Shown here: in pieces, positions 9,986-56,871 of the stretch
Layout: each line of letters begins with the position of its first letter
How positions within the stretch are numbered: the stretch's first letter is position 1
Source: Desulfosporosinus acidiphilus SJ4
Lineage (GTDB): Bacteria; Bacillota; Desulfitobacteriia; Desulfitobacteriales; Desulfitobacteriaceae
Direction: 5' to 3'
DNA length: 64,000 nucleotides
Assembly (NCBI RefSeq): GCF_000255115.2
Contig: NC_018068.1
Coordinates: 1,397,977-1,461,976 of the forward strand
Position numbers and translations under genes: made by a program
Notes under the pieces: model-generated
Told to the model about the DNA's origin: nothing
Database searches by the model: none
What the model saw: the letters and a program-made list of their open reading frames with translations, nothing else

Positions 9986-11605
9986 TTGAGCAGCATAAAA
10001 AAGATACGTACCATTGATAAAGCGCCAGTCTTCAACAAACCTCTTAATAAACTCAGAGTTTGCGCCTACGTAAGGGTATCAACTAACCAAACCGAGCAGC
10101 AAGAAAGTTTTTCGGCCCAAGTCCAGCATTATACTTCCTATATAAATAGCAATCCTGAATGGATCTTTTCAGGCATTTATAGTGACCAGGGTATATCCGG
10201 TAAGAATGCAGCAAAACGACCAGAGTTTATGCGGATGGTACAGGATGCTGAGAATAGGAAGTTTGACATGATTGTTACTAAATCAATCAGCCGCTTCGCA
10301 AGGAATACAGCTGATTGCTTGGAAACCGTCCGAAAGCTTAAACTTCTTGGGATTGCAGTCCAATTTGAGAAAGAACAAATAAATACTCTAACCGCTGAAA
10401 GCGAACTTATGCTTAGCATTTTGAGCTCAGTAGCCGAGGAGGAATTGGCCTCAATTTCTCAGAACATGCATTGGAGCAACCAACGGCGATTTAAGAAAGG
10501 CAAGTTCTCAGTTAACACAAAACGTTTTCTTGGCTACGATAAAAACCATGATGGAAATCTTGTTATAAACGATGAACAAGCTGCCATAGTGAGACGAATT
10601 TTCAAGGACTATCTTTCGGGCCTTGGAGTTTCTCGAATAGCGAAAGGTCTTGAAGCAGATAGAGTTAAAAATATCTCCGGAAAGATTAAATGGGCCGAAT
10701 CAAGCATTCGAGACATTCTTAAGAACGAAAAGTATTGTGGGGATGCCCACCTTCAAAAAACCATTACAACGGGCCTATATAATAGGAAGAGAAATTCTGG
10801 TGAAGCCCCAATGTACTATGTGAAGGATAGTCATCCGGTCATTATTAGCCGAGAGGATTTTGAAAAGGTTCAGGAATTAATGACGGAGAGGGCTAAATCG
10901 AAGGGCAATATTCAGGGTAACCGAGAGAAATACACAAATCGATATACTTTAACTGGAACTATTGTTTGCGGCCATTGTGGTAACACATTTAAAAGGCATA
11001 TAGACAATTGTGGTACGGTAGCTGAGTCGGTTTGCTGGATTTGCAACACCTATATAATAGGGAGGAAAAATTCTTGTGGAGTAGGGAGGATTAAAGAAGA
11101 GACCATCAAAGGTTTGTTTGTCAGAGTGTTTAATCGGCTTTGTACTGATCGAGCCAAATTGTTAGGAGATTATAAGGCAAAATTGGAACGAGAAAAGTTA
11201 ACTGAGTTAGATAATGAGCGCATCGCCAAGTTGGATGAGGAAATTGAGAAACTCATCAAACAGGAACGAGCGCTCTTTTTAATAGAAGCCAAGGGTTATG
11301 CTGACCACAATCTGGTGAAAAGTGAACACGAGGAATTGGTCAAAACCTTAACCCAAATTCAAACTGAACGATCGGATAGGATAGCTGAAATTAATAAGCG
11401 AGATAATCGAATGGCAAGAACTCTAGAACTTGAAGCTGTGCTTGAGGCACAGGGAGGAAACCTCACAGAATTCAGCGACGATTTGTACCGGAATATGGTT
11501 GAAAAAATAGTAGTCAAGGAACGAACTAAATTAATATTTCACTTAAAAAATGGCCTTGCTTTCGAGGAAACTTACGCCTTGAAGCGAGGTCACGATATTT
11601 TCTAA
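9986..11605 (+). CDS. Large serine recombinase 1 of a tandem pair
   Basis: A 539-residue recombinase starting at TTG 9986 with GAAGGGAG upstream. Resolvase domain: AYVRVST with catalytic Ser32, FSAQ, GISGKNAAKRPEF, and ITKSISRFARNTAD. A recombinase domain follows (about 185-300), then a zinc ribbon (CGHCGNTF and later CWIC), a long coiled coil (about 395-490) and a C-terminal strand-rich tail. Enzymes of this type integrate or excise mobile DNA at att sites. Its stop is 13 bases from the next recombinase, to which it is clearly related. Confidence 0.92.
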   Translation: MSSIKKIRTIDKAPVFNKPLNKLRVCAYVRVSTNQTEQQESFSAQVQHYTSYINSNPEWIFSGIYSDQGISGKNAAKRPEFMRMVQDAENRKFDMIVTKSISRFARNTADCLETVRKLKLLGIAVQFEKEQINTLTAESELMLSILSSVAEEELASISQNMHWSNQRRFKKGKFSVNTKRFLGYDKNHDGNLVINDEQAAIVRRIFKDYLSGLGVSRIAKGLEADRVKNISGKIKWAESSIRDILKNEKYCGDAHLQKTITTGLYNRKRNSGEAPMYYVKDSHPVIISREDFEKVQELMTERAKSKGNIQGNREKYTNRYTLTGTIVCGHCGNTFKRHIDNCGTVAESVCWICNTYIIGRKNSCGVGRIKEETIKGLFVRVFNRLCTDRAKLLGDYKAKLEREKLTELDNERIAKLDEEIEKLIKQERALFLIEAKGYADHNLVKSEHEELVKTLTQIQTERSDRIAEINKRDNRMARTLELEAVLEAQGGNLTEFSDDLYRNMVEKIVVKERTKLIFHLKNGLAFEETYALKRGHDIF

Positions 11606-11618
11606 GGAGGTTTTATTA

Positions 11619-13151
11619 ATGGCAACAGTAACAGTCATTCCAGCAAAACCGATGCAAGAATTGAAAGGTTTAGAGGCTACAGCAAAACTAAGAGTTTGCG
11701 CTTACGCACGGGTTTCCACGGATAATGAAGAGCAATTATCCAGTTATCAGGCGCAGGTTGAGCATTACACCTCATATATTCAGAACAATCCAGCTTGGGA
11801 ATTTGTTGAGATTTTCTCGGATGAAGGAATTAGCGGCACGAACACTAAGAAACGTGAGGGCTTCAACCGCATGATTGATGAGTGTATGGCAGGTAAGATT
11901 GACATGGTCATTACCAAGTCAATTAGCAGATTTGCTCGGAACACTCTGGATACATTGAAGTATGTACGTCAGTTAAAAGAAAAGGGAGTCGCTATTTTCT
12001 TTGAAAAAGAGGTCGTTAATACGTTAGATTCCAAGGGAGAATTTCTAATAACTTTGCTCGGAAGCCTGGCACAAGAAGAGAGTTCCAATTTGTCTCAGAT
12101 TACGAAGATGGGAATTAGTTACAGGTTCCAAGAGGGTAAGGTTTTAGTTAACCACAATAAATTCCTTGGGTACACCAAGGATGAACAGGGCCAGTTAGTT
12201 ATTGTTCCAGAAGAAGCCGAGGTAGTGCGGCGGATTTATCGGGAGTTCTTGGATGGCAAAAGTCCATATAAAATTGCCAGCAATCTTCAAAAGGATGGGT
12301 TAATCACTGGGGCAGGCGGTACAAAGTGGTATGACAGTACGGTCATTGGAATACTCAAGAATGTGAAATATATGGGCGATGCACTGCTCCAGAAAACTTA
12401 CACGGTAGATTTTCTAACGAAAAAGCGAGTAAAAAATACTGGACATGCTGCCCAGTATTATGTCGAGGATAGCCATGAGGCCATTATTAGTAAGGAAGAG
12501 TTTGCTGCGGTGCAGGCGGAGTTTGAGAGGCGGGCAAATATGCGGGGGTATTCCAAGACTGGTAAGAGTAAGTTCACAAGTGATTATGCTTTTTCCGGGA
12601 AGTTGTTCTGCGGGAATTGCGGTTCAAAATTCCGTCGCAGCAAATGGGGAAGCGGTAAGAATCTACAGATTGTCTGGATATGTATTAACCATCAAACAGG
12701 CGGCGATTGTGATATGAAGCCTGTTAAGGAGAAGGCGTTGGAGCAGGCATTTGTGCGGGCAATGAATAGAATTATAGCCAATAAAGAGGCCTATTTAACA
12801 GAAGAAACTACTGGCCCGCAGTTTGACTTTGAGGCTATTGATTCCAAGATAGATGAACTTCAGCAAGAGTTGATTGATGCGGTGCGGAATAACCAGGAAT
12901 ATTCAACTGCTGAAATTGAAAGGTTGCAAGCGCATAAGCAGAGGAGGAAGAACGATGAGGCCGAGAGGGCGTGGAAGGGCCGATTGGTAGAAGATTTCAA
13001 ATCTTATCTAGATGCTAGGGACGGCAAGCCACTGGATAAGTTTGATGGGGATTTGTTTAGGAAGTTGGTTGAGAAGGTTAGGGTAGTGTCGATGGTGGAG
13101 GTGGATTTTGTGTTTAGGACGGTGATGGAGTTGAGAGAGGTTTTGAGCTAA
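11619..13151 (+). CDS. Large serine recombinase 2 of a tandem pair
   Basis: A 510-residue recombinase with AAGGAGG before ATG 11619. Catalytic Ser33 sits in AYARVST; GISGTNTKKREGF and ITKSISRFARNTLD match recombinase 1. The zinc ribbon is CGNCGSKFRRS with VWICINH and a later Cys (about 330-365). The C-terminal half includes a helical insertion rich in Glu and Lys. Tandem large serine recombinases with different specificity or joint action are known from clostridial elements. The matching att sites are not evident here, so the pair may be a stranded remnant of an element. Confidence 0.92.
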   Translation: MATVTVIPAKPMQELKGLEATAKLRVCAYARVSTDNEEQLSSYQAQVEHYTSYIQNNPAWEFVEIFSDEGISGTNTKKREGFNRMIDECMAGKIDMVITKSISRFARNTLDTLKYVRQLKEKGVAIFFEKEVVNTLDSKGEFLITLLGSLAQEESSNLSQITKMGISYRFQEGKVLVNHNKFLGYTKDEQGQLVIVPEEAEVVRRIYREFLDGKSPYKIASNLQKDGLITGAGGTKWYDSTVIGILKNVKYMGDALLQKTYTVDFLTKKRVKNTGHAAQYYVEDSHEAIISKEEFAAVQAEFERRANMRGYSKTGKSKFTSDYAFSGKLFCGNCGSKFRRSKWGSGKNLQIVWICINHQTGGDCDMKPVKEKALEQAFVRAMNRIIANKEAYLTEETTGPQFDFEAIDSKIDELQQELIDAVRNNQEYSTAEIERLQAHKQRRKNDEAERAWKGRLVEDFKSYLDARDGKPLDKFDGDLFRKLVEKVRVVSMVEVDFVFRTVMELREVLS

Positions 13152-20911: not shown

Positions 20912-21065
20912 AACTAATTACCACCGCCCCTTCCCCAAGTTCAAGAAGCCGCCTGGTATAAATGTAAGCTGGGGGTAGGGCTGAGGTGGGTCTTCTAGCT
21001 GGAAGGCATTTGGGTTTGGGGTTCGTAAGGAGTGAATGTTTTGATAGAAAAGAGGGATTTAGTTG

Positions 21066-21839
21066 ATGAAGAGAATTTTATTATCTATTGTACTTTCACT
21101 TCTGTTTAGTCAAATTTTAATCGGTTGTGGTCAAAAAGTTGAACAACAAGCCCCAACAAACATACTTAAATCGGTACAAAGCATGAAATCACAGAGTAAT
21201 AACCATACCCAAATAGTTCAGGCCACTGTCGGAATTACTACGAACATAGCAATTCCCGACCTTAAGAATATAAAAAATACAAAGTATCCAGATATAGTTG
21301 CTGAGGTGGGGGACACAAAAATAACGGGTTTGCAGCTAACGAGGGGAGTAGCAATTAAGCAGAATGCCTTTGTTAACAATATCAAAATGCCACAGGATGA
21401 ATCTTTCTACGAAAAAATAGCATTGGGTCTTCTTGTAAAAAATGCGTTAATTGATACTGAGGTAATGCGCCAAGGATTGCAGGTAACTCCAGACGAGGCT
21501 AGATCGTATTTGGAACAACAGAAAAAATCTATGGATTCACTACCAGAAAGCGACCCTGCGAAAGAAGCGTATACAAAAACAATAAATGACAATGGTTTTA
21601 GTACTTCCACGGATTACATCGATTCTCCCGAAACGATAAAATTTACGCAAATTCTTTTAGGAAGAGTGAAACTTAGAAACTTAGTTTTACACTCGATTCC
21701 AGCCGGGCAGAATGAGGCTTATAAGGCATGGCAAGATTATACGGATAAGCTGATTAATCAAGGCAATTACAAAATATTTATCCCTGTTGATATAAAGGGT
21801 TACCAACAATTAGAGGAGAAAGCCGCCCAAGGAAAATAG
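21066..21839 (+). CDS. SurA_N-like lipoprotein, paralog 1 of 3
   Basis: A 257-residue lipoprotein: signal peptide with lipobox LIGC (Cys near 21), a Gln/Asn-rich spacer, then VAEVGDTKITGLQLT, the strand that opens SurA/PrsA N-terminal chaperone domains, and a helical body with ALGLLVKNALIDTEV and VTPDEARSYLEQQKK. The PPIase domain is absent. It closely matches the protein at 44560-45327 (VAEVGDYKITGLQLT, LPxSDPAKEAY, DIKGYQQLE at the end) and more distantly 45857-46669. An extracytoplasmic folding helper is inferred. Confidence 0.75.
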   Translation: MKRILLSIVLSLLFSQILIGCGQKVEQQAPTNILKSVQSMKSQSNNHTQIVQATVGITTNIAIPDLKNIKNTKYPDIVAEVGDTKITGLQLTRGVAIKQNAFVNNIKMPQDESFYEKIALGLLVKNALIDTEVMRQGLQVTPDEARSYLEQQKKSMDSLPESDPAKEAYTKTINDNGFSTSTDYIDSPETIKFTQILLGRVKLRNLVLHSIPAGQNEAYKAWQDYTDKLINQGNYKIFIPVDIKGYQQLEEKAAQGK

Positions 21840-33746: not shown

Positions 33747-35291
33747 TCAATTGACTCCGAATGTAATATGTGTTCTTATTTCGGCGCCAAAAGTGGCCCC
33801 AACATTCCGTGTATCCATTCTTTGGGCTTGAATTTCTTTAACAACACTTGTAATAACGTGACGTCGTAATTTAGGATCTTCTGTGTCCGCTAAGAGTGCA
33901 AGCTCATTTAGCTTATTTAAAAAGTTTTCAGATGCTGACGGTAGAAGATTATTTTCTAATTCTTTTTCAAGTTGCAACCGTTGAACTTTTATTTCGGCTA
34001 AAGAGTTCTTAATTTCTGTCAACTGTTTCTCGGCCATGTTCAGATCTATAAGATCTTGCCGGAAAAGAAGTGTAACTTTGTCGCGTTCCTGAAGAAGTTT
34101 ATCTTCCTTATTTTTAAGCCTTATTCCAGCCTCTTGAAGCCCAATCGTGTCATTTGATTTATTAGTTTTGCTTAATTCTTCGGACATTATGGAAGGATTC
34201 TTAAGCATGTTCGATATATATTGCCATATGCTTTCATCTAGGTCTTTAGCAGGGATTTGACGGGCTGGGCATTTATTTGTTTCGCCAAGATGGCTTTTAC
34301 CACTCATTGCTCTGCCTGTCTTACAAGCGTAATATTGTTTTCTTCTTGATCCACTGTGTACGGATCGCATATGCTGCCCACAGAGCGGACAAACGATAAG
34401 ATTTCGGCATAAGTATTGATAATCAAAAGGTTGCTTGGTAATGCGTTTATTAAGTTGCAATTGTCTTTGTGCGGCTTCCCAGATCTCACGGGTTATAATT
34501 GGAGGAATGGGCACTGCAATCCACTCTGAGGGTTTTCGAGTGCCTCTCTTAAACTTGTTTTGACCAATCTTTGTTTTATATTCTTTATTAACCCAATGTA
34601 TACCCGCATATGTTTCACGTGTGATAATGTCATGAACTGTCCCAATATTCCAACTGTTTATATCAGTCCTGGTTGGATACTGTAACTGAGCTAGACGTGT
34701 TGCAATAGCTCTAATGCCTAGATGATCCTCTACTACCCAGGAAAATATCTGCCGGATCATTTTTGCCTCATCGTCGTTAATCGTATAAACGGACCTTTCG
34801 GCATCCCAGTTATATCCATAAGGATGATTGTTTTTAATTACTTTGCCTGATAGAGCCTTTCCTCTCTTGCCACGTTGCATTCTCTCTCTAATTTTTTCGC
34901 GTTCATAAGCGCTGACAGCTCCTTGGATACTATAAAATAGTTTTCCTTCCGGAGTATTTTGCCATTCGAAATTAACAAAATGAAGCTGGGCACCACTACT
35001 TTCTATTTCATCTGTAATTAAAAGTTGGTGGGTGAGATTACGAGCCAGCCGATCTGGATCATAGACGATAACAGCTCCGAAACGTTTTTCTCGTAAAGCA
35101 TTTCGGAGCTCATCTAATGCTGGACGCTCTAAATAAGCACCAGAATAGCCATCTTCAATAAATTCTTCAACACTTAAGACGTTGGGAATTTCATGAGCTT
35201 TCTTTCGACATTCGGTAAGTTGAGTTTCGATGCTATATCCTTTTTCTGCTTGCTGATCAGTTGACACGCGAACATATATAGCAACAATCAA
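33747..35291 (-). CDS. Large serine recombinase (element integrase)
   Basis: A 514-residue recombinase. TTG 35291 is preferred (AGGAG seven bases upstream) over GTG 35300. Catalytic Ser10 lies in IYVRVST; GYSGAYLERPAL and VIVYDPDRLARN follow. The recombinase domain covers about 155-270, the zinc ribbon CPLCGQHM...YYAC about 305-330, then a coiled coil and a C-terminal strand region. It is distinct from the tandem pair at 10 kb. Its 3' end points at the broken mntH gene, the usual position of an integrase beside its att site. Confidence 0.92.
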   Translation of the reverse strand: MIVAIYVRVSTDQQAEKGYSIETQLTECRKKAHEIPNVLSVEEFIEDGYSGAYLERPALDELRNALREKRFGAVIVYDPDRLARNLTHQLLITDEIESSGAQLHFVNFEWQNTPEGKLFYSIQGAVSAYEREKIRERMQRGKRGKALSGKVIKNNHPYGYNWDAERSVYTINDDEAKMIRQIFSWVVEDHLGIRAIATRLAQLQYPTRTDINSWNIGTVHDIITRETYAGIHWVNKEYKTKIGQNKFKRGTRKPSEWIAVPIPPIITREIWEAAQRQLQLNKRITKQPFDYQYLCRNLIVCPLCGQHMRSVHSGSRRKQYYACKTGRAMSGKSHLGETNKCPARQIPAKDLDESIWQYISNMLKNPSIMSEELSKTNKSNDTIGLQEAGIRLKNKEDKLLQERDKVTLLFRQDLIDLNMAEKQLTEIKNSLAEIKVQRLQLEKELENNLLPSASENFLNKLNELALLADTEDPKLRRHVITSVVKEIQAQRMDTRNVGATFGAEIRTHITFGVN

Positions 35292-35362
35292 ACCAATCAC
35301 TCCTAATTTTGGATAGGCCTTGTAAATAAGCCCCCACGCATAGGATTTATGGGGGTGAGACT

Positions 35363-44288: not shown

Positions 44289-44559
44289 GTCCAAAAGGTA
44301 AATATAGTTGTCGATGTACTAAAACCACTCTAATCCTTTATGGATAAGTGTTTGAGATTTAGAAAATGTACTAAAAAAAGCATTAACAAAGAATGTTAAG
44401 TGTGTTTTTTGTATGCAATTGGTTAAAATGTGTTTGGCAAATAACAACCGGATGGGTAATCCTGTAATAATGAAGATAAAGGAAAATTGCTCCTAGGCCA
44501 CTGGCAAGGCATACCAATTAAGGCGCTCCGGTTGTCTCCAGTAAATCAGCAGAGAAATA

Positions 44560-45327
44560 TTATCTATTTAAAGCAACCTGCGCTTCCAATTGTTGATAAC
44601 CTTTTATATCAATAGGTAATAAGATTTTGAAGTTACCTTGATCTAATAGCTTTTCCGTATAATCATCCCAAGCCTTTGATGCCTCGTTCTGATCTTGTGA
44701 AATCGACTGTAATACAGCGTTTTTAAGTTTGGCCCTACCTAGTATCGTTTGAGTCATATTGATTACATTTTGTGAATTAATATATTCGGATACATTATCA
44801 AACCCATTGATCTTTATATCTTTTAAATAAGCCTCTTTAGCAGGGTCGCTATCTGGTAGTGAGGTCATCGATTTTTCCTGTTGCTCTAGATATGCTTTAG
44901 CTTCCTCCACTGTTACCGTTAATCCTTGCTTCTTCACTTCATTATCAATTAGGGCGTTTTTTACTAATAATCCAAGTGCAACTTTTTCATAAAATGCTTC
45001 GCTCTGGGGCTTTTTAATATTATTAATATAATCATTTCTCTTTAAAGCAATTTCCTTAGTTAATTGTAACCCTGTGATTTTATAATCCCCGACCTCTGCA
45101 ACTATCTCGGGAAACTTAGTATTTCTTAAATTATTTATATCTGCCATATTTGGACTTGAAGTATTCCCGACAGTACCCTGAACTACCTGAAAGTGATCAC
45201 CTTTCTGAACTGGTATTTGAACCTGTGTTTGATTAACTTGTGCTTCTTCAACTTTTTTTTGATTACAGCCAAACAGAAATAACGATAACGAGAGTATTCC
45301 AAGAAAAATTATCTTTCTACGAAACAT
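44560..45327 (-). CDS. SurA_N-like lipoprotein, paralog 2 of 3
   Basis: A 255-residue lipoprotein with signal peptide and lipobox (LFGC near residue 21), then a chaperone-like domain: VAEVGDYKITGLQLTKEIAL, ALGLLVKNALIDNEV, VTVEEAKAYLEQQEKSM, and the end DIKGYQQLEAQV. It is about half identical to the protein at 21066. There is no PPIase domain. It lies downstream of another SurA_N-like gene on the same strand, separated by an IS remnant, and probably assists folding of exported proteins. Confidence 0.75.
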   Translation of the reverse strand: MFRRKIIFLGILSLSLFLFGCNQKKVEEAQVNQTQVQIPVQKGDHFQVVQGTVGNTSSPNMADINNLRNTKFPEIVAEVGDYKITGLQLTKEIALKRNDYINNIKKPQSEAFYEKVALGLLVKNALIDNEVKKQGLTVTVEEAKAYLEQQEKSMTSLPDSDPAKEAYLKDIKINGFDNVSEYINSQNVINMTQTILGRAKLKNAVLQSISQDQNEASKAWDDYTEKLLDQGNFKILLPIDIKGYQQLEAQVALNR

Positions 45328-45607
45328 GATAATCCTCCTATCTTTTTATTATATGGACAAAAAATAGAAACAATATATAGAATTATTTCAATAATATTGG
45401 AAATAATATTTATTTTCAAGCTAGAAACCTGTACTTTATTGGTGCCATAATATTCTTAAGAGAACATCGTGATATCAAGCCCCTTATGAAGTTTTATTCG
45501 AATCCTGCAGTCAATTGGTCTATATTATTCTCAATATATGCTTCTCATTCTTCAAGGGCTTAAGGAAGAGGTCTGAATTAATCAAATCTAATCAGTGATT
45601 ACGATAG
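45328..45607. other. AT-rich gap upstream of the lipoprotein gene
   Basis: Promoter region for the 44560-45327 gene and left flank of the IS remnant. No ORF supported. Confidence 0.35.
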
Positions 45608-45855
45608 AAAATGCGTAGATCGAGACCGATTGAGGTAGAAAGTGTCTTTGGATATGCCAAATATTATTTTGGTGTCCGTTTTATCCTCAATGGATTAGAA
45701 AAGGTAATGTTAAACTACAATGGATTGCACTGTATCGCGCCCACATTATGAGAAAACTGGTTATTGTCTCGGGAAGGACATTTCCGGTTAAACTTTTGAA
45801 TTGAATATTTTCTATGGAGTCGCGAGAAACTTGAGTTTCTGGACGACTCCTTTTT
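45608..45855 (+). pseudogene. IS1182-type transposase 3' remnant and end hairpin
   Basis: The frame RPIEVESVFGYAKYYFGVRF then LNGLEKV matches the C-terminus of IS1182-like transposases (VEGVFG...G...F...RG...V), and HIMRKL continues it after a shift. A GGAGTCG/CGACTCC hairpin (45816-45850) follows. A related remnant is at 62398. Not the same subgroup as the intact IS at 19.3 kb. Confidence 0.65.
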
Positions 45856-45856
45856 C

Positions 45857-46669
45857 CTAATTGATAGAATGAATATTGACGTTTACAAATAAATTGTAGT
45901 TATTTCCATCTATCAACTTTTGGGTAAAATTGGTCCAATAGGCTGATTGTCTTTGCTGATATAAGCTAATTTTAACTTTTTGTTTTATCTCATCACTAAT
46001 TGAAGAATTATTTTTTATACCATGGGCGGCTAAGTAAGAGTCAACTTCATTATCAGTAGGGGGTAAAATTTCCTTGACAACTTGCTTTTCCAACTTAGCG
46101 CTATTTAAGTGTTCCTGATAAAATCCTATTATAATTGGGTCTGTTTCATACTGGTTCGGACTTGAATAACCCATCTCTTTTATCATTTCAAGAAACTGCT
46201 TTTTATAAATATTATTGTTGTCTAAGTTCATTAAATATTGGACCGACTTTGTTGCTGCCGTTGCAGCGTCTTCCTCAGAGGTTGTAATTCCTCTGACTTG
46301 TACTTCGTGGTTTATAAGCGCTCGCCTTACTAATTGTTGCAAAGCTATTTGTTCATACTGAGTATCAGCTTTTGGTTTATTCGATCTTTCATAATCCCTT
46401 TTAATTAAAGCAATTCGAGAAGTTAGTTGCGCTCCAGAAATTTCTTCTGAATAAATTTTAGCCACAACATTTGGATATTTTGTGTTAGTTACTTTAGGGG
46501 GCAAGATCGTAGAATCAGTATTTGTAACAGCACGACCGGAAGGAGTTAATGTAATACTTGTAGAACCTGAATTTGAAGGATTAGTTTCGGCTGATACAAC
46601 AGTAGTCATTCCTAATAGCATTGTTAATGCAAATGCTATAGTCAAGATTTTAATATGTTTCTTATGCAT
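45857..46669 (-). CDS. Exported SurA_N-like protein, paralog 3 of 3
   Basis: A 270-residue protein with a signal peptide ending VVSAETN. The body has VVAKIYSEEISGAQLTSRIA, ALQQLVRRALINHEV, and the closing NYNLFVNVNIHSIN, a diverged version of the two lipoproteins at 21066 and 44560. It has no lipobox, so is secreted or wall-bound. It starts 26 bases after the stop of the secreted 172-aa protein, so the two are likely cotranscribed and it may be that protein's folding helper. Confidence 0.68.
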   Translation of the reverse strand: MHKKHIKILTIAFALTMLLGMTTVVSAETNPSNSGSTSITLTPSGRAVTNTDSTILPPKVTNTKYPNVVAKIYSEEISGAQLTSRIALIKRDYERSNKPKADTQYEQIALQQLVRRALINHEVQVRGITTSEEDAATAATKSVQYLMNLDNNNIYKKQFLEMIKEMGYSSPNQYETDPIIIGFYQEHLNSAKLEKQVVKEILPPTDNEVDSYLAAHGIKNNSSISDEIKQKVKISLYQQRQSAYWTNFTQKLIDGNNYNLFVNVNIHSIN

Positions 46670-46695
46670 TATTTCACCTCATTCTAATAAATATT

Positions 46696-47214
46696 TTAAT
46701 TGTGTGAAGTCCAATCGTAATATATATCTTGGCTATTGGGGCTGTAACCGTCGCTGTAAAAGTTTACATGACCTTCTGTATAAACTGATGCTGTATTGTA
46801 CTCTGCCCAAGGATTTGAGTACCCTTCATCATAAAGCTGACCAGATGAATGCAATGTCCACGATTGAGGCGTTGAAATGCGATAAGTATTTGAATAATTG
46901 TAAGTAACGTCAGGGGTTACTGTTACATCAGCATTATCTGGATTATAATCTACCTCTCCCCCTAAGTATAATGTACCTAAATAGGCTTCCCCATATGGAG
47001 TACCGTCCCAACATTCCTGCCAACAACCATTGACTGAAAGCGGATATGTAACCCCGTATGAGGATCCGTCTGGAGCATCAAAATACTCAGTAAACGAGAT
47101 TGGAATTTGTTGGCCATTAATGTTATAATCCCACATACTTGTGGCATATACAGGACTAACGGATAAGATTAAGATAACTAACGATAGGAACGCAAATGAT
47201 AGAAATTTTTTCAT
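46696..47214 (-). CDS. Secreted aromatic-rich 172-aa protein
   Basis: A 172-residue protein with a clear signal peptide (about 24 residues, ending PVYA). The mature part is rich in Tyr, Trp, Asn, Ser and Asp, predicted all-beta, with a CWQEC pair near residue 63 and no membrane anchor. No family recognised. It lies between the 51-aa peptide gene and a SurA_N-like gene, all on the minus strand and downstream of the 37-bp element. It may be an exoprotein of the peptide-signalling locus. Confidence 0.6.
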   Translation of the reverse strand: MKKFLSFAFLSLVILILSVSPVYATSMWDYNINGQQIPISFTEYFDAPDGSSYGVTYPLSVNGCWQECWDGTPYGEAYLGTLYLGGEVDYNPDNADVTVTPDVTYNYSNTYRISTPQSWTLHSSGQLYDEGYSNPWAEYNTASVYTEGHVNFYSDGYSPNSQDIYYDWTSHN

Positions 47215-47306
47215 TTAAATATTTTACCTCCTCATCTTTTTTGCGTTTAAAAAGCCTTTCGTTGGGATACTTATTAAAGATTATCCAAGACTAAGGGGTC
47301 CATTAA

Positions 47307-47462
47307 TTAAGCCTGAATTGGATCTATATTGGGACGGTAGATGGTATTTTGTGTTAAAGTTGTCTGAGAGTAACCAGATTTATGGGTGTTCAAATTTGGA
47401 GCAAACTGTAAAGTCAGAATTAAACAGCTACAGGACAAAATACATAAAAGAACTTTTTTCAT
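47307..47462 (-). CDS. 51-aa exported peptide, candidate pheromone precursor
   Basis: ATG 47462 (minus strand) has GGAGGG at good spacing; earlier in-frame ATGs do not. The peptide begins MKKVLLCILSCSCLILTLQF, a signal sequence, and ends TIYRPNIDPIQA. Short length, signal peptide and proximity to an RRNPP-type regulator match NprX/PapR-type pheromone precursors, where the C-terminal few residues are the signal. It is first in a minus-strand operon downstream of one copy of the 37-bp element. The pheromone role is inferred. Confidence 0.6.
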   Translation of the reverse strand: MKKVLLCILSCSCLILTLQFAPNLNTHKSGYSQTTLTQNTIYRPNIDPIQA

Positions 47463-47533
47463 TCCAATCCCTCCTTCCTTTTTGTAATATAACAAAACCA
47501 AGTAAATATTAGGGTGAAAATAAAACATCCTAT

Positions 47534-47570
47534 TTTGTCGAAGATTTCTGAGTTGACAAAAAACGACAAA
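47534..47570 (-). promoter_or_regulatory. 37-bp element, copy 1 (peptide operon)
   Basis: On the minus strand it starts TTTGTCGTTTTTTGTC and ends CTTCGACAAA with an 11-bp variable middle, then ATAG. The arms TTTGTCG and CGACAAA form a dyad. It lies about 71 bp upstream of the 51-aa peptide ATG. Copy 2 at 49260 is identical in both outer blocks and has the same orientation relative to the gene it precedes. Confidence 0.8.
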
Positions 47571-47631
47571 CATTAGGATTGTTTAAAAGTGATATGTTTC
47601 AAACTTAATGATCGGATTGGATGACTGAACT

Positions 47632-47760
47632 CACAAAACGAGATGTCAGAATGGCGAGACGCCTAGAACTTAAAACGCTGTTCGAGGCACAGTGCGGCAA
47701 AAAATAAGTTGGTATTTGAATTGCAGTCAAAAAGGGTCATCGAGAGGAATTTAGAAAAGG
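47632..47760 (+). pseudogene. Serine recombinase C-terminal remnant
   Basis: ELTKRDVRMARRLELKTLFE then AQCG matches INKRDNRMARTLELEAVLEA in recombinase 1 (near 11390-11460), also at the DNA level. It is followed by a stop and broken sequence. This is a short leftover of another recombinase gene, lying between the peptide gene and the regulator. Confidence 0.7.
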
Positions 47761-47868
47761 TTTTGTTTGGGCGATGAAGTAAGTGATCGAGTATATCGAT
47801 CAGCCTTTCTGTGTATACAAAGGTCTGCTTTTATGTACAACAGCAGTTGATGGGGAGGAAAATTGATT

Positions 47869-49185
47869 ATGCAAAAAACAATAAAGGCCACAGCATTAAA
47901 GGCTTATTTAAAAAGAAACAATATACTCCCATCATCTTTAGCTATGAGATGCCACATTAGTGAGAACTATATGAGTAATATTCTAAATGCTAAACGTACA
48001 AATCCCCGATTACCGATACTTGTTCGTATGGCGGCAGAACTTGACTTACCATTGCATACTGTTCAGGAACTCCTTCGTACTTCCTACGATTCGTTGATCC
48101 CAGAAAAGGTATTATTGGAAAGTGTTGCCGAAAATCATTTGCTTGCCTATTTACAACAAATTCTGGATGCCTCGGAGCTGAATGATTTTTCAATGCTTTC
48201 CCATCTCCAGAAGGTAATTTCTTCCGATATCCCTGACTCGACCCATTTAAAAAGATATTATTTATACTGGTATGACGCTTATAATTTAACTTCTCAAAAC
48301 AAATTTGAATTAGCTATCCAATTGTTCCTCGAAGCGTCAAAATTTGTTCCAAAACATGAAATTGAAAAACGTTTTAAAGGAAAGGTGCTTTTGGGGTTAG
48401 GTGCAGCTTATACTGCTAGAGGAAAGTATCAACAAGGTCTAAAGGCTTTTCGCAAGAGCCTATTTTTATGGTCTGACGGGTATCAAGCAGCTCGAGTATA
48501 TATGAACCTTGGTACGGTCTATAGAAGACTTACTAAATATAAGCTTTCGGTTAGTGCATATGAGAAAGCTTATGAATTTGGAACAGTGGCCATTAAACTC
48601 TATTCTATTGTTGGTTTGATCCAGGTTGCACTTGATAATGAAGATTATAAAACAGCAAGGAAATGGGTCATTAGAGGATTTAGACAGGCAAAAACTTTGG
48701 AATCACCGCGTGGTAAATGCGACCTCTATTGCAATATTGCTGAGTATTATTCTGCTATTGGAAAACTTAACCTCTCTAAAGGCTTTTATCAGAGGGCTAT
48801 TCAGGTTGCTATTATTTCTGGGGATTTCCGGACAAAACAATGGGCTGAGCTAGAACTTGCTAAGCTCTTTTTAAGACAAGGCAAGGAGATAGAATTTGAA
48901 ACTTTAATGCAGACTCTGGAATTAGAATTATCAGGTACTGAGGATGTTCTCTTGGTTGCTAGACATTTAAATATTATGGGCAAGAAGTATTTTGAACAAA
49001 GTGAATATACTCTCGTGATTTCTATTACTAGAAAAGCCTACATACTATTAAAATCTCTCTCCCCTTCTATTTCTACGGAACTTCAAGAGAGTTGCCGTTT
49101 ACTTAGTGAGGTGTATTCGGCTTTAAAAGAACCAAAAGCCGCGGAATTCTACCGTAACGAAATAAAAAGACATAAACTAAAATAA
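47869..49185 (+). CDS. RRNPP-type (NprR/PlcR-like) HTH-TPR regulator
   Basis: A 438-residue protein from ATG 47869 (GGGGAGG ten bases upstream). Residues 8-65 form an XRE HTH (LKAYLKRNNILPSSLAMRCH, ENYMSNILNAKRTNP). From about residue 120 to the end it is all helical with TPR units, for example GKVLLGLGAAYTARGKYQQG, ARVYMNLGTVYRRLTKYKLS and LYCNIAEYYSAIGKLNLSKG. The length is close to NprR. In this superfamily imported peptides bind the TPR domain and switch DNA binding. Copies of one dyad element flank the gene. Confidence 0.8.
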   Translation: MQKTIKATALKAYLKRNNILPSSLAMRCHISENYMSNILNAKRTNPRLPILVRMAAELDLPLHTVQELLRTSYDSLIPEKVLLESVAENHLLAYLQQILDASELNDFSMLSHLQKVISSDIPDSTHLKRYYLYWYDAYNLTSQNKFELAIQLFLEASKFVPKHEIEKRFKGKVLLGLGAAYTARGKYQQGLKAFRKSLFLWSDGYQAARVYMNLGTVYRRLTKYKLSVSAYEKAYEFGTVAIKLYSIVGLIQVALDNEDYKTARKWVIRGFRQAKTLESPRGKCDLYCNIAEYYSAIGKLNLSKGFYQRAIQVAIISGDFRTKQWAELELAKLFLRQGKEIEFETLMQTLELELSGTEDVLLVARHLNIMGKKYFEQSEYTLVISITRKAYILLKSLSPSISTELQESCRLLSEVYSALKEPKAAEFYRNEIKRHKLK

Positions 49186-49228
49186 AAACAAGAAAGGATT
49201 CTGAAAGGTTCGGATTTTTCCTTGCTAT

Positions 49229-49262
49229 AAAACACATGGTGACATATTTAACCATGTGTTTT
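49229..49262 (+). terminator. Terminator of the RRNPP regulator gene
   Basis: AAAACACATGGT pairs perfectly with ACCATGTGTTTT, and GTCGTTTTTT follows. Its T-rich tail merges into the 37-bp element. Confidence 0.75.
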
Positions 49263-49308
49263 GTCGTTTTTTGTCTCTCCTGAGAACTTCGACAAATTAG
49301 TATATAAT
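49260..49308 (+). promoter_or_regulatory. 37-bp element, copy 2, with promoter (radical SAM operon)
   Basis: Element 49260-49296 has the same outer blocks as copy 1 (16 and 10 bases identical). A -10 TATAAT lies at 49303-49308; CTGAGA at 49280-49285, inside the variable middle, would be a -35 at 17 bp. The dyad arms TTTGTCG/CGACAAA bracket the -35, a sensible place for a regulator to act. Confidence 0.75.
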
Positions 49309-49374
49309 GCATCATCTCAAATTCTTTATTGATTTTGTTAACATAAGCACTAAAGAAAATTGAGAGAGGAAAGG

Positions 49375-49446
49375 ATGAGAACAAGTTTTTTTGGTTCATG
49401 CATTTATATTGGGCAATCCTTTTGTTATACATTTAGCCTGCTATAA
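49375..49446 (+). CDS. Candidate 23-aa hydrophobic peptide
   Basis: ATG 49375 follows GAGAGAGGAAAGG and encodes MRTSFFGSCIYIGQSFCYTF plus SLL. It is the first ORF after the copy 2 promoter. Size and hydrophobicity recall SHP-type pheromones or a RiPP precursor core with two Cys. Being so short, chance cannot be excluded. Confidence 0.4.
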   Translation: MRTSFFGSCIYIGQSFCYTFSLL

Positions 49447-49509
49447 GCCAAAGCTAATTCAGGTTATTCTCTAAATAATGATCTGATTCAAAATCGAAAA
49501 TATTTGAAA

Positions 49510-49611
49510 ATGAAGTTATTAAAAATAGTATCGCGATGGGTGCCAGATCCTACCCTTGTAATGGAAGAAGTTAAAAAACGAATAAGTCGAATGAATGAAG
49601 CATTGAAGTAA
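49510..49611 (+). CDS. Candidate 33-aa ORF
   Basis: ATG 49510 opens 33 codons (MKLLKIVSRWVPDPTLVMEE then VKKRISRMNEALK), a basic amphipathic sequence. The RBS is weak (TTTGAAA). It lies between the copy 2 promoter and the radical SAM gene. It may be a small protein of this operon or a remnant. Confidence 0.35.
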   Translation: MKLLKIVSRWVPDPTLVMEEVKKRISRMNEALK

Positions 49612-49821
49612 TCCGAGGTAGGGTCACAGTCAAGCGAATCCCAGAAAAAAAACTCTCGTTTAAGGATCTAAATATTATCTTATTTTCAAAATCGTTCCTT
49701 AAGGTGCAGAAACCTTATATTCCGTAGATTGTATGCTTATTAAATGTATGTATTAAATCAACTCGTAGCATTTCAGTTTTGATTTTTTGTTTTGACCATA
49801 GTGAAAGGAATAGAGCTTATT

Positions 49822-52122
49822 ATGAAAACACTTTTAGTTTTTCCGCCAGGATGGCATCCAAATGGGCCTTATCTTGCCTTACCCATACTTAAGTCTTTCC
49901 TCAAAAATGAGAGAGGAATTTCAGCTGATATCAGAGATCTTAATATTGAATATTTTGATCATATTTTTTCAAAAAACTATATCAAGCAATGCTATGACAA
50001 AATTAAAGCTGAAAACAGGATGAATGATATTTTGAAATTGGTCAGGGAATCTACTCTTTTAATTGAAAAGGCAAAGGAAATAAGTAAATCTCAGAAATTT
50101 TTTAACAGCAATGACAGAAAATTTGCTGTTAATACAATTGCAAATGCATTATATGTAATTAATGAGGCTTTTGAAGGACAAGATCTGAGTTTCAAAAATA
50201 TCGACTTGTATCATAGTAGGTACTCATCCGAAGAAGTAATGAAATCCACAGTAGATAAGCGCCATAATCCTTATATTAATTTTTATGAAAAGGGTATTAT
50301 TCAAGAAATTAACTTGCTTAAGTATAAATTTGTTGGAATCTCAATTAGTGGAAACTCACAAATAATTCCTGCCATTACACTTGCTAGATTAATTAAAAAA
50401 CTTTGCCCATCTGTTACTCATATTTCACTAGGTGGAAATTATATCACGCGAATGGCTTTACGATTCGGAGAAACACATCCATTTTTTGAATTTGTAGATT
50501 CAATATTAGTTTATGATGGAGAAATCTCAATTGGAGATCTTATCGAATCTGTTAAAGATAATAAAACATTCGAAAACATTAATAACCTATATTTTGTTCA
50601 TAAAACATCAAATTTAATAATTAAAAATACGATAGTTGAGACTGACTATATCAATATTTATACACCAGATTTTGATGGCTTCCCACTTGATAAGTACTTC
50701 GTTCCAGAGTTAATTCTACCAATATATAGTTCAAGAAGCTGTTTTTCTAATTGTGCTTTTTGCACAGTTCCAAAAGCAACATCTGGAAAGTATCGGAGTT
50801 TTAAAGTAGATAAAGTTTTCAGTATTATGAGGGAATTAAAGGCAAAGTACGGTGTTAGCATATTTTGTTTTGTTGATGAAACTTTAAACCTTAAAAACAT
50901 GGAAAAACTATGCCAAATGATAATCAATGAACAGGAAGAAATCTATTGGTACGGCGAAACTCGTTTTTCTCCCAATATATCAGAATTGCTATGCGAAAAA
51001 TTGTATAAAGGAGGATGTAGGCAAATTCAATTCGGGTTGGAATCGTATTGCCAAAGGGTTCTTGATAAGATGAAAAAGAATGTCAAGATTGAATGGATTG
51101 AGCCCTCAATTCGTAATTTATATAAAGCACATATCCCTGTTCATTTGTTCTTTTTTACCGGCTTCCCTACAGAAACTTCTGAAGAAGCTTTAACGACGTA
51201 CGCTTTCACTCGCAGAATGCTTGCAGAATCTCGTGAAGAATATCATGTACCCACATCAACGTATGGCTTTGGCCAATTTGGTTTAGAGATTGGTTCTGAT
51301 GTTTGGTTTAATCCAGGTGATTATTTTGTTGAGGTTAAGCCTGTTTCTGGTTTGCAAGATTTAAAGTTGAATGTTGATTACACTGCAAAAGTTGGTTTGA
51401 CACAAGAACAAAGCGAATTACTCGTTAATAAGCAGAAGGGAAATTATCCAATCTTTTCAAGACTTGCGTTCCCACTGCCAAAAGAAGTTGTTCTATCTGA
51501 AAAAGTAAGTGTAATGGATGCAATCTATAAAACGTCTTCAACTGAAGATTATTATAAAGTGAAGTATAGCCACAACTATATTAATAGTCTGGAACATTGT
51601 CATATCGAACTTACTGAACACACTTACATTGTCGAAATAGGCAACAATATCATTTTTTACAATGTTCCAAATAGAAAAACATATAGTGCGCCAATTGCCC
51701 AAATTTCAATGTCAGATATGATACGAAATGGAGAAACAATTTCGGCAATGAAGAATAAATGGTCAGAAGAAGATATTAATTCATACGTTTCTGATTTAGT
51801 GTATTATGGCTTAATCAAAATTCGTGAATCGGCAGAGCCTTATACAGACACAATTGATGAGCATAGGATTGGAATAGTAGAAGATGTCATGTGGGATTAT
51901 GATGACCAATTCGATATGTATATCTGTATGAATCCTCATTCGAATAGTCTAGTGAGGTTAAGTAAGGTTTCTAAAACATTGTTAAGCCTATTTGCAGATT
52001 CTAAACATCTTTCGGAGATTGTTTTAGTACTTCAAGACAATAATATTCGTATTTCTGAAAGTGCAATAAGATTATTAGTTACTAAATGCCTCAAGGAAGA
52101 AATTCTATATCTTATAAAGTAG
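49822..52122 (+). CDS. B12-binding-type radical SAM protein with PqqD/RRE-like C-terminus
   Basis: A 766-residue protein from about ATG 49822. An N-terminal extension leads to a B12-binding-like Rossmann part (about 165-260: FVGISISGNSQIIPAITLAR, ISLGGNYITRM), though no DxHxxG cobalamin motif is seen. The radical SAM domain has CFSNCAFC with cluster Cys307, 311 and 314, then YWYGETRFSP and QFGLES. Two C-terminal segments (about 585-665 and 690-766) resemble PqqD/RRE peptide-binding folds. Together these suggest modification of a ribosomal peptide. It lies under the regulated promoter at 49303. Confidence 0.72.
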   Translation: MKTLLVFPPGWHPNGPYLALPILKSFLKNERGISADIRDLNIEYFDHIFSKNYIKQCYDKIKAENRMNDILKLVRESTLLIEKAKEISKSQKFFNSNDRKFAVNTIANALYVINEAFEGQDLSFKNIDLYHSRYSSEEVMKSTVDKRHNPYINFYEKGIIQEINLLKYKFVGISISGNSQIIPAITLARLIKKLCPSVTHISLGGNYITRMALRFGETHPFFEFVDSILVYDGEISIGDLIESVKDNKTFENINNLYFVHKTSNLIIKNTIVETDYINIYTPDFDGFPLDKYFVPELILPIYSSRSCFSNCAFCTVPKATSGKYRSFKVDKVFSIMRELKAKYGVSIFCFVDETLNLKNMEKLCQMIINEQEEIYWYGETRFSPNISELLCEKLYKGGCRQIQFGLESYCQRVLDKMKKNVKIEWIEPSIRNLYKAHIPVHLFFFTGFPTETSEEALTTYAFTRRMLAESREEYHVPTSTYGFGQFGLEIGSDVWFNPGDYFVEVKPVSGLQDLKLNVDYTAKVGLTQEQSELLVNKQKGNYPIFSRLAFPLPKEVVLSEKVSVMDAIYKTSSTEDYYKVKYSHNYINSLEHCHIELTEHTYIVEIGNNIIFYNVPNRKTYSAPIAQISMSDMIRNGETISAMKNKWSEEDINSYVSDLVYYGLIKIRESAEPYTDTIDEHRIGIVEDVMWDYDDQFDMYICMNPHSNSLVRLSKVSKTLLSLFADSKHLSEIVLVLQDNNIRISESAIRLLVTKCLKEEILYLIK

Positions 52123-52275
52123 CTTATTGTTATAGGTGTAGACTTTTCCTTTTCGTGCAAATGCTTAAGAGGAGAAGTTCTATATATATTACTCAATAAA
52201 CCTACGTTTTATTAGGGTTTATCGAGTTTGCCAATTGGCACAACGCAAATATCTAATCGAAAGGAGGAATTAGGT

Positions 52276-52377
52276 TTGAGTAAAGAAATACTGAAACAAC
52301 TCCAAGAAGAAGCTTTAACCAAGGAAGTCACGGCAGAAGTGTTCGACACATGTTCCAACTCCACTCAGTATGTGTAG
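52276..52377 (+). CDS. 33-aa ORF, candidate RiPP precursor
   Basis: TTG 52276 has an excellent SD, AAAGGAGGAATTAGG. The peptide has an acidic helical leader, MSKEILKQLQEEALTKEVTA, and a C-terminal part EVFDTCSNSTQYV with one Cys. It follows the radical SAM gene by 153 bases and precedes a terminator, so may be in the same transcript. Leader-plus-core form fits a substrate of the radical SAM enzyme; this is inference. It could also be a truncated remnant. Confidence 0.45.
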   Translation: MSKEILKQLQEEALTKEVTAEVFDTCSNSTQYV

Positions 52378-52462
52378 TGACACCAATTGTTTACCAAACT
52401 GAACAATATTCTACAATTAATTTACTTAGAGTGATTAATGCGGAGTGGTAAACAGGATTCTG

Positions 52463-52509
52463 AGCAGAATACATTGACTCGAAAAGGTTAATGTATTCTG
52501 CTTCTTCTT
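52463..52509 (+). terminator. Terminator of the radical SAM operon
   Basis: AGCAGAATACATT (52463-52475) pairs perfectly with AATGTATTCTGCT (52490-52502), followed by TCTTCTTG. Confidence 0.75.
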
Positions 52510-52838
52510 GTTTGAATTTAGAATAATTCGAATTGAATTAAACCTAATTGGGTAAAAATTCTTTCTTTGTTAGACTTTCACGTACTATTTCGGGATAAAA
52601 ATGACAAGGTTCATCCATCTTGTAAGGAAAGGTTAAGACCACGTTTTTATTAAAGAGGCTTATTCAATCTGCCCTTTTCCTTAGGGAGAAAGGCCTAATC
52701 TTTAAATTCCAGGCAGACGCAATGACATCTAAATACCGGGTGTCGGGGCATGCGTGTTGGATCATTTGTCTGAGGATGCGTGATGATGCTTCTCTGAGCA
52801 AAGACAAAAACGGTGCAGGAGTGGAAATACGCAGAAAC
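52510..52838. other. Intergenic stretch without supported genes
   Basis: About 330 bases between the terminator and the ArsR promoter. No ORF with RBS is seen. Confidence 0.35.
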
Positions 52839-52891
52839 TTGACAACAATACTAATTAGATTAAAATCTAATTAGATAGTGATCTAATTAGT
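52839..52891 (+). promoter_or_regulatory. Promoter with triple CTAATTAGAT operator
   Basis: -35 TTGACA (52839-52844), 16 bp, -10 TAAAAT (52861-52866). CTAATTAG cores occur at 52851, 52867 and 52883, forming overlapping palindromes across and beyond the -10. This is the usual layout for autoregulation by an ArsR-type repressor. Confidence 0.7.
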
Positions 52892-52972
52892 TGTTCATAG
52901 AATTATTCTTGGTGATTCTTATACTGAAAATAGGGTGTTGTCAGGGGTTGTAGAAAAAGGAGTGATAAACCA

Positions 52973-53581
52973 TTGCAACTAAATCGAATTATTAATTTTC
53001 ACAAGGCATTATCTGACCCTACACGTATTCGTATTCTGGCAATTTTGGCGAAGGAGCCTCACCATGGTCAGGCCCTTGCTGAACGCCTTGGAATAACCCC
53101 TTCGACGATTACTCACCACATGGCAAGACTTCGCGATGCAGGTCTTGTGAAAACTAGACGAGAGAAGAATACGATTTATTTTTCTTTGGAGGAAATGACA
53201 TTACAACAGGATGCTCAGGCAACGGTAAATGTCATCCTTGAACCAGCAAACAATAGGGTCATGAAAATTGAATGGGAGGCAAGCATTTTAGATAGTCTGG
53301 AAAAAGAACGTGATGGTGTTCTCAGGAATTTCTTTACACCTGATGGTAAACTGAAACAAATTCCTGTTCAGCATAAGAAAAAACGATTTGTTTTGGAACG
53401 GATGTTAGAAGGATTAGTGGTAGGGCGAAAGTATTCGGAAAAAGAGATTAACGAGCACATTAAAACCTTTTATCCTGATTACGCAACCATTCGGCGCGAG
53501 TTCATTATCTACCGATATATGTACCGAGACAATGGGATCTATGAAATGAATCCTCCAGAACTATGGAAAAGAGAGGATTAA
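52973..53581 (+). CDS. ArsR-family regulator with DUF2087 domain
   Basis: A 202-residue protein from TTG 52973 (AAAAAGGAG upstream). Residues 5-75 form a winged helix (HKALSDPTRIRILAILAKEP, ITPSTITHHMARLRDAGLVK). The C-terminal part from about 130 is DUF2087: KLKQIPVQHKKKRFVLERML, YSEKEINEHIKTFYPDYATI, FIIYRYMYRDNGIYEMNP. No metal-binding Cys box, so probably not a metal sensor. Its gene overlaps nearly with an MFS transporter (4-base gap), which it likely controls from the repeated operator upstream. Confidence 0.85.
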   Translation: MQLNRIINFHKALSDPTRIRILAILAKEPHHGQALAERLGITPSTITHHMARLRDAGLVKTRREKNTIYFSLEEMTLQQDAQATVNVILEPANNRVMKIEWEASILDSLEKERDGVLRNFFTPDGKLKQIPVQHKKKRFVLERMLEGLVVGRKYSEKEINEHIKTFYPDYATIRREFIIYRYMYRDNGIYEMNPPELWKRED

Positions 53582-55989: not shown

Positions 55990-56871
55990 ATGACAGATTA
56001 TATTGAGAGGTTTTTAGATAATTGTAATGTCTCTGAGGCATCCATAAAAAGCTATAATTATGTGCTCCGGCGATTTCAAAAATGGGTGGAAGGGACAACG
56101 GGTGATCCTTTTTCTCCTGAACAATTAAGTAAAATGCTTATTGAAGACTATAAGCAATCCATAAGGGAAAAGTCCCCAACCTACATCACTAAGAATCTAG
56201 TCGTCATAAAGATGTTTACGTTATGGGCGTACGATAAACAAATGATTGATTATGATCCGGCTCATTCGATCAAGTTTCCGGAACAAGTGGATCCAGGCCC
56301 AAAATGGTTAAGTCCTGGAGAGAGAAAGAAACTGATCAATTATCTTTATCGCGGAGACGTGGATCGTCGGATTATTCTCTTGGTCGTTTTAAGTCTTTCG
56401 GCGGGATTAAGAGCCGAAGAGGTTACGGAAATCAAGAATGAACATATAAAGGCTATGGCTACGAAGGGAACTCTTGAAGTGTTTGGAAAAGGTGATAAAC
56501 GAAGAATCGTTCCTTTAAATAAGAATGTCATTGAGGCTATCCGGAATTACTGGCAGGACTATCCGGACCGGCGCAAGGGATATCTATTTACGAACTTAAG
56601 GAAAGGCACAAAATTAACGACCCGTGCCATTCAATATATCATGCAGGATCTTCAGGAAATCCTTAAGTTCGAAGAACCCTTGACGTATCACCGGTTAAGA
56701 CACACTTGTTTTAAAAAGATGGCGGATGACGGAGAACCCCTTGATCGTATTGCCCGAATTGCCGGGCATATGAAGAAAAATGGACGCCCAAACCTTGACA
56801 CAACGGTGATTTACACAAAGCCCAATCTTGATGATCTACAAGAGGTCGTTCGCAGGCAGGAGTGGGATTGA
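55990..56871 (+). CDS. Tyrosine recombinase (XerC/D-like integrase)
   Basis: A 293-residue protein. Residues 1-85 form the core-binding SAM-like domain (NVSEASIKSYNYVLRRFQKW). The catalytic domain has Arg in LSAGLRAEEV near 139, Lys in VFGKGDKRRIVPL, HRLRHT near 237, GHMKKNGRPN with the second His, and the nucleophile Tyr in TTVIYTKPN near 276. All catalytic residues are present. The regular direct repeats just upstream may be its sites. No adjacent excisionase is visible. Confidence 0.9.
   Translation: MTDYIERFLDNCNVSEASIKSYNYVLRRFQKWVEGTTGDPFSPEQLSKMLIEDYKQSIREKSPTYITKNLVVIKMFTLWAYDKQMIDYDPAHSIKFPEQVDPGPKWLSPGERKKLINYLYRGDVDRRIILLVVLSLSAGLRAEEVTEIKNEHIKAMATKGTLEVFGKGDKRRIVPLNKNVIEAIRNYWQDYPDRRKGYLFTNLRKGTKLTTRAIQYIMQDLQEILKFEEPLTYHRLRHTCFKKMADDGEPLDRIARIAGHMKKNGRPNLDTTVIYTKPNLDDLQEVVRRQEWD

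Follow-up and report, generated by a model that had tools for sequence, protein, structure and literature searches.

What reads the 37-bp dyad element that stands, in two copies of opposite orientation, on either side of a TPR regulator gene of Desulfosporosinus acidiphilus SJ4, and does a single regulator govern both of the gene units that these copies precede? The locus was studied within a stretch of 64,000 nucleotides (the window) and compared with related genomes. The reading that we favor, and consider probable, is that the regulator and a small exported propeptide form a new RRNPP-type receptor/pheromone subfamily, that the element is its operator, and that the whole is a peptide quorum-sensing cassette. 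The features concerned are as follows.

44560-45327, minus strand: SurA_N-like lipoprotein, 255 aa (profile); membership of the unit uncertain
45857-46669, minus strand: SurA_N-like exported protein, 270 aa (profile); probably in the same transcription unit as the propeptide gene
46696-47214, minus strand: secreted-type protein, 172 aa, the next gene after the propeptide gene; no family over cut-off
47307-47462, minus strand: propeptide gene; its 51-aa product has a hydrophobic leader, ends in RPNIDPIQA and is proposed to be a pheromone precursor (sequence and relatives)
47534-47570, minus strand: element copy 1, proposed as an operator; the propeptide ATG follows 71 nt downstream
47869-49185, plus strand: RRNPP-type receptor/regulator, 438 aa, HTH and nine TPR pairs (domain profiles, AF2, PDB profile and fold comparison)
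49227-49264, plus strand: hairpin (-17.4 kcal/mol) that follows the regulator gene; its T-tract overlaps the 5' half of element copy 2
49260-49296, plus strand: element copy 2, lying 3' of the regulator gene as the CEB3 element does; the ATG at 49375 follows after 78 nt and the radical SAM gene after 525 nt
49375-49446, plus strand: ORF of 23 codons downstream of copy 2, in the position that the propeptide takes in relatives; its similarity to the propeptide is not significant
49822-52122, plus strand: radical SAM protein of 766 aa, whose highest-scoring models are PhpK and RiPP C-methyltransferase
52276-52377, plus strand: 33-aa ORF MSKEILKQLQEEALTKEVTAEVFDTCSNSTQYV with a TTG start and a strong RBS, AAGGAGG, behind the radical SAM gene; no NCBIfam match

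The regulator and its relatives

The length of the regulator (438 aa) lies inside the 250-500 aa range of RRNPP receptors. Domain profiles gave TPR_12 at 5.5e-16 and HTH_3 at 18.9 bits, below the cut-off of 23, and no NCBIfam model reached its cut-off. An AlphaFold (AF2) model built from 8 sequences (pLDDT 89.2) showed the HTH helices within residues 9-70 and nine TPR helix pairs. When PDB sequences were searched by profile, NprR (4gpk, 9.3e-6) and the HTH of SinR were matched, together with many designed and eukaryotic TPR proteins; in the fold comparison, apo NprR scored Z 23.7 over 323 residues and Rap Z 23.6. The eukaryotic TPR protein LGN scored Z 25.4, as high as NprR and Rap, which counts against our reading; the fold alone therefore does not settle the family of the regulator. 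Placement near the NprR subfamily, from profile (E 9.3e-6) and fold (Z 23.7), is tentative. The preliminary description had called the protein an RRNPP-type regulator, a view supported by its length, TPRs, HTH and fold, by the adjacent leader-bearing propeptide and by a C-terminal code common to the relatives; to the NprR-like length noted there, the 4gpk match and the fold score add an NprR-like profile and fold.

With the own genome counted, the regulator was matched in 7 of 45 genomes of the family (1e-5), 5 of 73 of the order (1e-20) and 5 of 82 of the class (1e-30). Full-length or near-full-length relatives, 29-55% identical, numbered four in Peptococcaceae bacterium CEB3 (G002), one in Acididesulfobacillus acetoxydans (G001) and two in G007 (the own genome being G000), and fragments only were seen in G039, at a second place in G001 and on C57 of CEB3. 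The 28 further genomes of the genus to which the window belongs gave no relative at 1e-20, and none was found in viral contigs or in plasmids (E<=1e-10). Scanning genome contigs with the single regulator protein as query returned no relative; with the alignment as query, five true relatives were recovered (four in CEB3, one in A. acetoxydans), and five weak TPR matches in unrelated phyla were dropped. Weak matches in G032, G038, G039 (C91) and a second one in G000 were also dropped. These proteins of 420-422 aa have a TPR-like start and, by eye, no HTH, and each adjoins a divergent, membrane-protein-like ORF of 84-87 aa without a DPI end. The proposed subfamily would range over four genomes of one bacterial family, with a fragment in a fifth, and this patchy spread suggests horizontal transfer. 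Beside the truncated receptor fragment in G039 lies an AgrB-like ORF (L007:38-538, by eye), which we take to be such from its motif.

The element and its location

The two copies were identical at all 26 specified bases (0 mismatches), confirming the coordinates and orientations first reported for them. A search of the whole genome (4,991,181 bp, three contigs), which had been proposed as a check, found only these two at up to three mismatches and no third copy; 100 dinucleotide shuffles gave none at the same tolerance. The looser dyad TTTGTCGN{4,26}CGACAAA also matched the genome at the window's two sites only, so that the element is not scattered over many unrelated loci of its own genome. 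When the copies were aligned, the boxes were identical at 26 of 26 bases, the middle at 4 of 11 and the flanks at 73 of 122 (60%). Besides a dyad, the site can be read as three boxes, one facing two direct boxes 10 bp apart: on one strand the box TTTGTCGAA comes first, and 16-17 bp on begins a pair of boxes in the opposite direction, with the same 10-bp spacing. The inner box of copy 2 is reduced to TGTC and is absent from the listing of the core-box search. The hairpin at 49227-49264 is absent from two terminator scans, whose loop limit it exceeds, and promoter scans gave background level, so no transcription start is claimed.

In CEB3 the dyad occurs twice, just 3' of regulators L010 and L014. 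The L010 locus (L018:7940-9883) is a decayed cassette with an early-stopped regulator, no propeptide left, an intact dyad and an N-terminally truncated ORF of the geobacillin-26 family (39.6 bits, cut-off 40); in Alicyclobacillus, one protein of this family is a bacteriocin, according to the available text of PMC13176240. The number of dyads was not informative. The other 43 genomes held 26 (0-5 each), and the reversed pattern, an imperfect control in that reversal turns CG into GC, was matched 8 times in G000, twice in G002 and about 140 times in those 43. Reversed dyads are not rarer than real ones, so the number shows no enrichment and only the location is telling. Three observations count against our reading: G001 and G007 have one dyad each, at a great distance from the regulators of these genomes; the three-box site of CEB3 points the opposite way, relative to the downstream gene, from that of the window; and a tandem-box site on C22 of CEB3 (L071:6755-6810) has no evident gene of the system adjoining. 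Of the 45 genomes, only G002 has the tandem form TGTCGNNNTTTGTCGAA, which occurs there twice, once at the L010 site; the copies in the window do not fit this pattern, and the search tests the CEB3 form only. More distant relatives are without the dyad: L006 and L015 have one TTCGACT each, L011 has TTCGACA inside an inverted repeat and L005 has none. L004 retains just the pair of direct boxes. The site is thus seen within the clade of 52-55% identity and not beyond it.

All four dyads of the own genome and CEB3 lie at such regulators and the boxes are constrained, which supports the assignment of the element as the likely operator of the regulator. The earlier proposal that the element is the regulator's site is supported in this way; the binding itself is putative.

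Spo0A as an alternative reader of the element

The preliminary description had not considered that the element could be a cluster of Spo0A boxes, through which phosphorylated Spo0A would switch both units while the TPR regulator acts elsewhere. The available text of PMC3485338 gives the core Spo0A box as TGTCGAA. At both copies TTCGACA is a perfect core box in inverted form, and two further partial boxes at the site are 10 bp apart. Tandem Spo0A boxes have this 10-bp spacing. At copy 1, a weak -10-like TAATAT (by eye) lies 29 nt behind CGACA, near the spacing of spoIIGA promoters. However, the spoIIGA promoters of 6/6 genomes had CGACA 26-27 nt before TATAAT, whereas the same pattern gave 13 nt at copy 2, 39 and 49 nt at C37, and 6 and 16 nt at C41_a (where the stretch stops short of a TATAAT that lies beyond it); the pattern was absent from copy 1 and C41_b. 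Further, all four dyads of G000 and G002 lie at this regulator, although spoIIE- and spoIIGA-like genes are present in 6/6 tested genomes (located in these six by matches below curated cut-offs). The restriction of the CEB3 tandem form to 1 of 45 genomes also speaks against Spo0A, but that pattern does not match the window copies. The spacing and location results lower, and do not remove, the standing of Spo0A as the reader of the element, the chief rival reading, which we consider rather unlikely.

The propeptide and its C-terminal code

The receptor and propeptide genes of the window are divergent neighbors 406 bp apart, with only ORFs of <50 aa between them. The propeptide leader has two positive charges and then a 12-residue stretch with a mean hydropathy of 2.86; Sec export is putative. 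In three other genomes, 6/7 of the full-length or near-full-length relatives have a small leader-bearing ORF 83-152 bp behind them on the same strand, with a basic start, a hydrophobic stretch and a length of 32-53 aa; these sizes and the 51 aa of the window propeptide fall within the 10-100 aa of the RRNPP criterion. [I/M]DPI stands near the end in five of these six ORFs, the ends being NIDPIEGG, NIDPIEA, IDPIKLIHFFG, MDPIKLIHFFA and LIDPIQAAVLH; the exception is LMDGIDCG.

Among 193 RBS-preceded ORFs of 25-80 aa, drawn from 230,008 bp (the window and ten loci chosen for the regulator), [ILM]DPI occurred within the last 12 residues in six, and all six adjoin a regulator. Three things limit this count: the choice of loci, an RBS list compiled when two of the six were already known, and the close orthology of L021 and L025. 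The score of similarity to the window propeptide was reached by 0/500 shuffles for L004, L014, L011 and L006 and by 9/500 for L015; the L005 peptide, which reads MDGID, was no more similar than shuffles (437/500). The codon pattern NIDPI[QE] was found at four places in the 45 genomes, three of them these propeptides; the match in G022 was rejected as a propeptide and sits inside a longer frame. The reversed pattern gave nine matches against four forward, so here too only the location is telling. The code varies along with the receptor, with NIDPI in the 52-55% clade, whereas two relatives of 29% identity have [IM]DPIK.

The small exported ORF could instead be a secreted effector or bacteriocin, in which case the regulator would not sense a peptide. 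One gene behind a relative does belong to a bacteriocin family. The combination of a leader, a variable middle and a conserved C-terminal code, and the variation of that code along with the receptor, point away from an effector and make it quite improbable; we retain the ORF as the proposed pheromone precursor.

The second copy of the element

Homology between the copies continues into their flanks (local score 78, against a maximum of 47 for a control of just under 200 random stretches of the window), and the copies may for that reason stem from duplication of a promoter; the part downstream of the element alone scored 38, below the highest control (47). We read the pair as a duplicated promoter whose boxes would have been kept by selection. 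The 23-codon ORF at 49375 was considered as a decayed second propeptide and rejected, as 209/2000 shuffles reached its score. That the copies are a promoter duplication read by another factor, or by none at copy 2, would fit the homology in the flanks and the short ORF without demonstrable propeptide similarity, but is very improbable in view of the boxes (26/26 identical, against 4/11 in the middle and 60% in the flanks) and of the dyads behind regulators of another genus.

Flanking genes

No minus-strand terminator-like site is among the five listed for 44300-53000. Membership of the unit is uncertain for the lipoprotein gene at 44560-45327 because it follows a 529-bp gap and has a promoter-like site of its own. 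The window has three SurA-like exported proteins, at 21063-21839 (by eye only), 44560-45327 and 45857-46669, the first two of which look closely similar. On the other side, the models matched by the radical SAM protein scored far below their cut-offs (PhpK 123 bits, cut-off 600; RiPP C-methyltransferase 109 bits, cut-off 282), and the 81 further class genomes searched held no relative at E<=1e-60. The C-terminal part of the protein had no match over cut-off, and the predicted structure of this part (pLDDT 31) was of no use. An 18-pair terminator-like hairpin lies at 52462-52503 behind the 33-aa ORF, which by its sequence is a possible, if speculative, RiPP precursor.

On C37 of CEB3, the propeptide is followed by genes for a secreted-type protein of 129 aa and an ABC ATPase and by ORFs that look, by eye, like membrane proteins; the 129-aa protein was expected to be lactococcin-972-like and gave no match over cut-off. 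On C41 of CEB3, a B12 radical SAM gene nearest to ApyD (6.2e-73, 246 bits, cut-off 750) lies about 3.9 kb behind the propeptide. This ApyD-like gene (L019:957-2739) is apparently split into two ORFs. The genes after the propeptide at L021, L024 and L025 are of other kinds, and a common antimicrobial theme of the cargo is suggestive only.

A tyrosine recombinase (Phage_integrase, 3.7e-20) and three ORFs resembling serine recombinases (by eye) were noted in the window at 9986-13151, 33747-35300 and 55990-56871; with the phage-like genes at 36-44 kb (by eye) they make up a mobile neighborhood.

Proposed mechanism and significance

The propeptide encoded at 47307-47462 would leave the cell, be cut down to a short C-terminal peptide with the IDPI code, and re-enter in this form. 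The nine-TPR regulator would bind this peptide and act through its HTH on the three-box element. Copy 1, before the propeptide and secreted-protein unit, would allow feedback of either sign; copy 2 lies behind the regulator and now precedes the radical SAM gene. That one regulator controls both units, as first proposed for the locus, is plausible; for the radical SAM side comparative support is absent, no relative of that gene being found in the other genomes of the class (81 genomes, E<=1e-60). A bolder version, which we offer as speculation and hold to be unlikely, is that a separate RRNPP subfamily with an [ILM]DPI pheromone code uses an operator that imitates paired Spo0A boxes; receptor and Spo0A would compete for the sites or share them, coupling peptide signaling, antimicrobial or RiPP cargo and sporulation.

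Our preferred reading provides the Desulfosporosinus group with a receptor, a pheromone and an operator that can each be put to the test. To our knowledge, operators are known for few RRNPP regulators, and the code and the site together would allow further members to be predicted. Acidophilic sulfate reducers are useful against acid mine drainage, and density-controlled secretion in them is therefore of practical interest.

Comparison with known systems

In the literature searched, no paper mentions both RRNPP and Desulfosporosinus; the supplementary tables of RRNPP_detector may list the pair. Five criteria for an RRNPP system are given in the available text of PMC10075063, together with a program default of -60 to 400 bp for the distance between the genes. 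The locus agrees with four of the five (receptor length, TPRs, propeptide size and adjacency), and Sec export is represented by a predicted leader. At 406 bp, the window pair is just outside this default range of the published program, as its available text gives it.

The pair resembles NprR/NprX in its HTH and nine TPR pairs, in profile (9.3e-6) and fold (Z 23.7 over 323 residues) and in the adjacent leader-bearing propeptide. It differs in that identity in the fold alignment is 15%, in that the propeptide gene is divergent and 406 bp away, and in its peptide code, IDPI, from which the NprX peptide differs. We know of no operator that can be named as like that of the window. Spo0A boxes share with it an identical core, TGTCGAA, in inverted orientation; they are unlike it in that the site here is a dyad with a 10-bp pair, and its distance to the -10, where a -10 was found, is not that of spoIIGA promoters. 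Rap/Phr is similar in its TPR fold (Z 23.6) and in its small exported propeptide, which is what Phr is. Unlike Rap, which has lost the DNA-binding HTH according to the available text of PMC12700828, the window regulator has one. The QssR systems of Clostridium saccharoperbutylacetonicum, an anaerobe that forms spores, couple RRNPP regulators with propeptides, as presented in the available text of PMC7206700, and by this description they are like the present pair; the available text of PMC12700828 places QssR in clan B with NprR. Set beside these systems, the pair from D. acidiphilus is a new member, and probably a new subfamily, of the known RRNPP kind.
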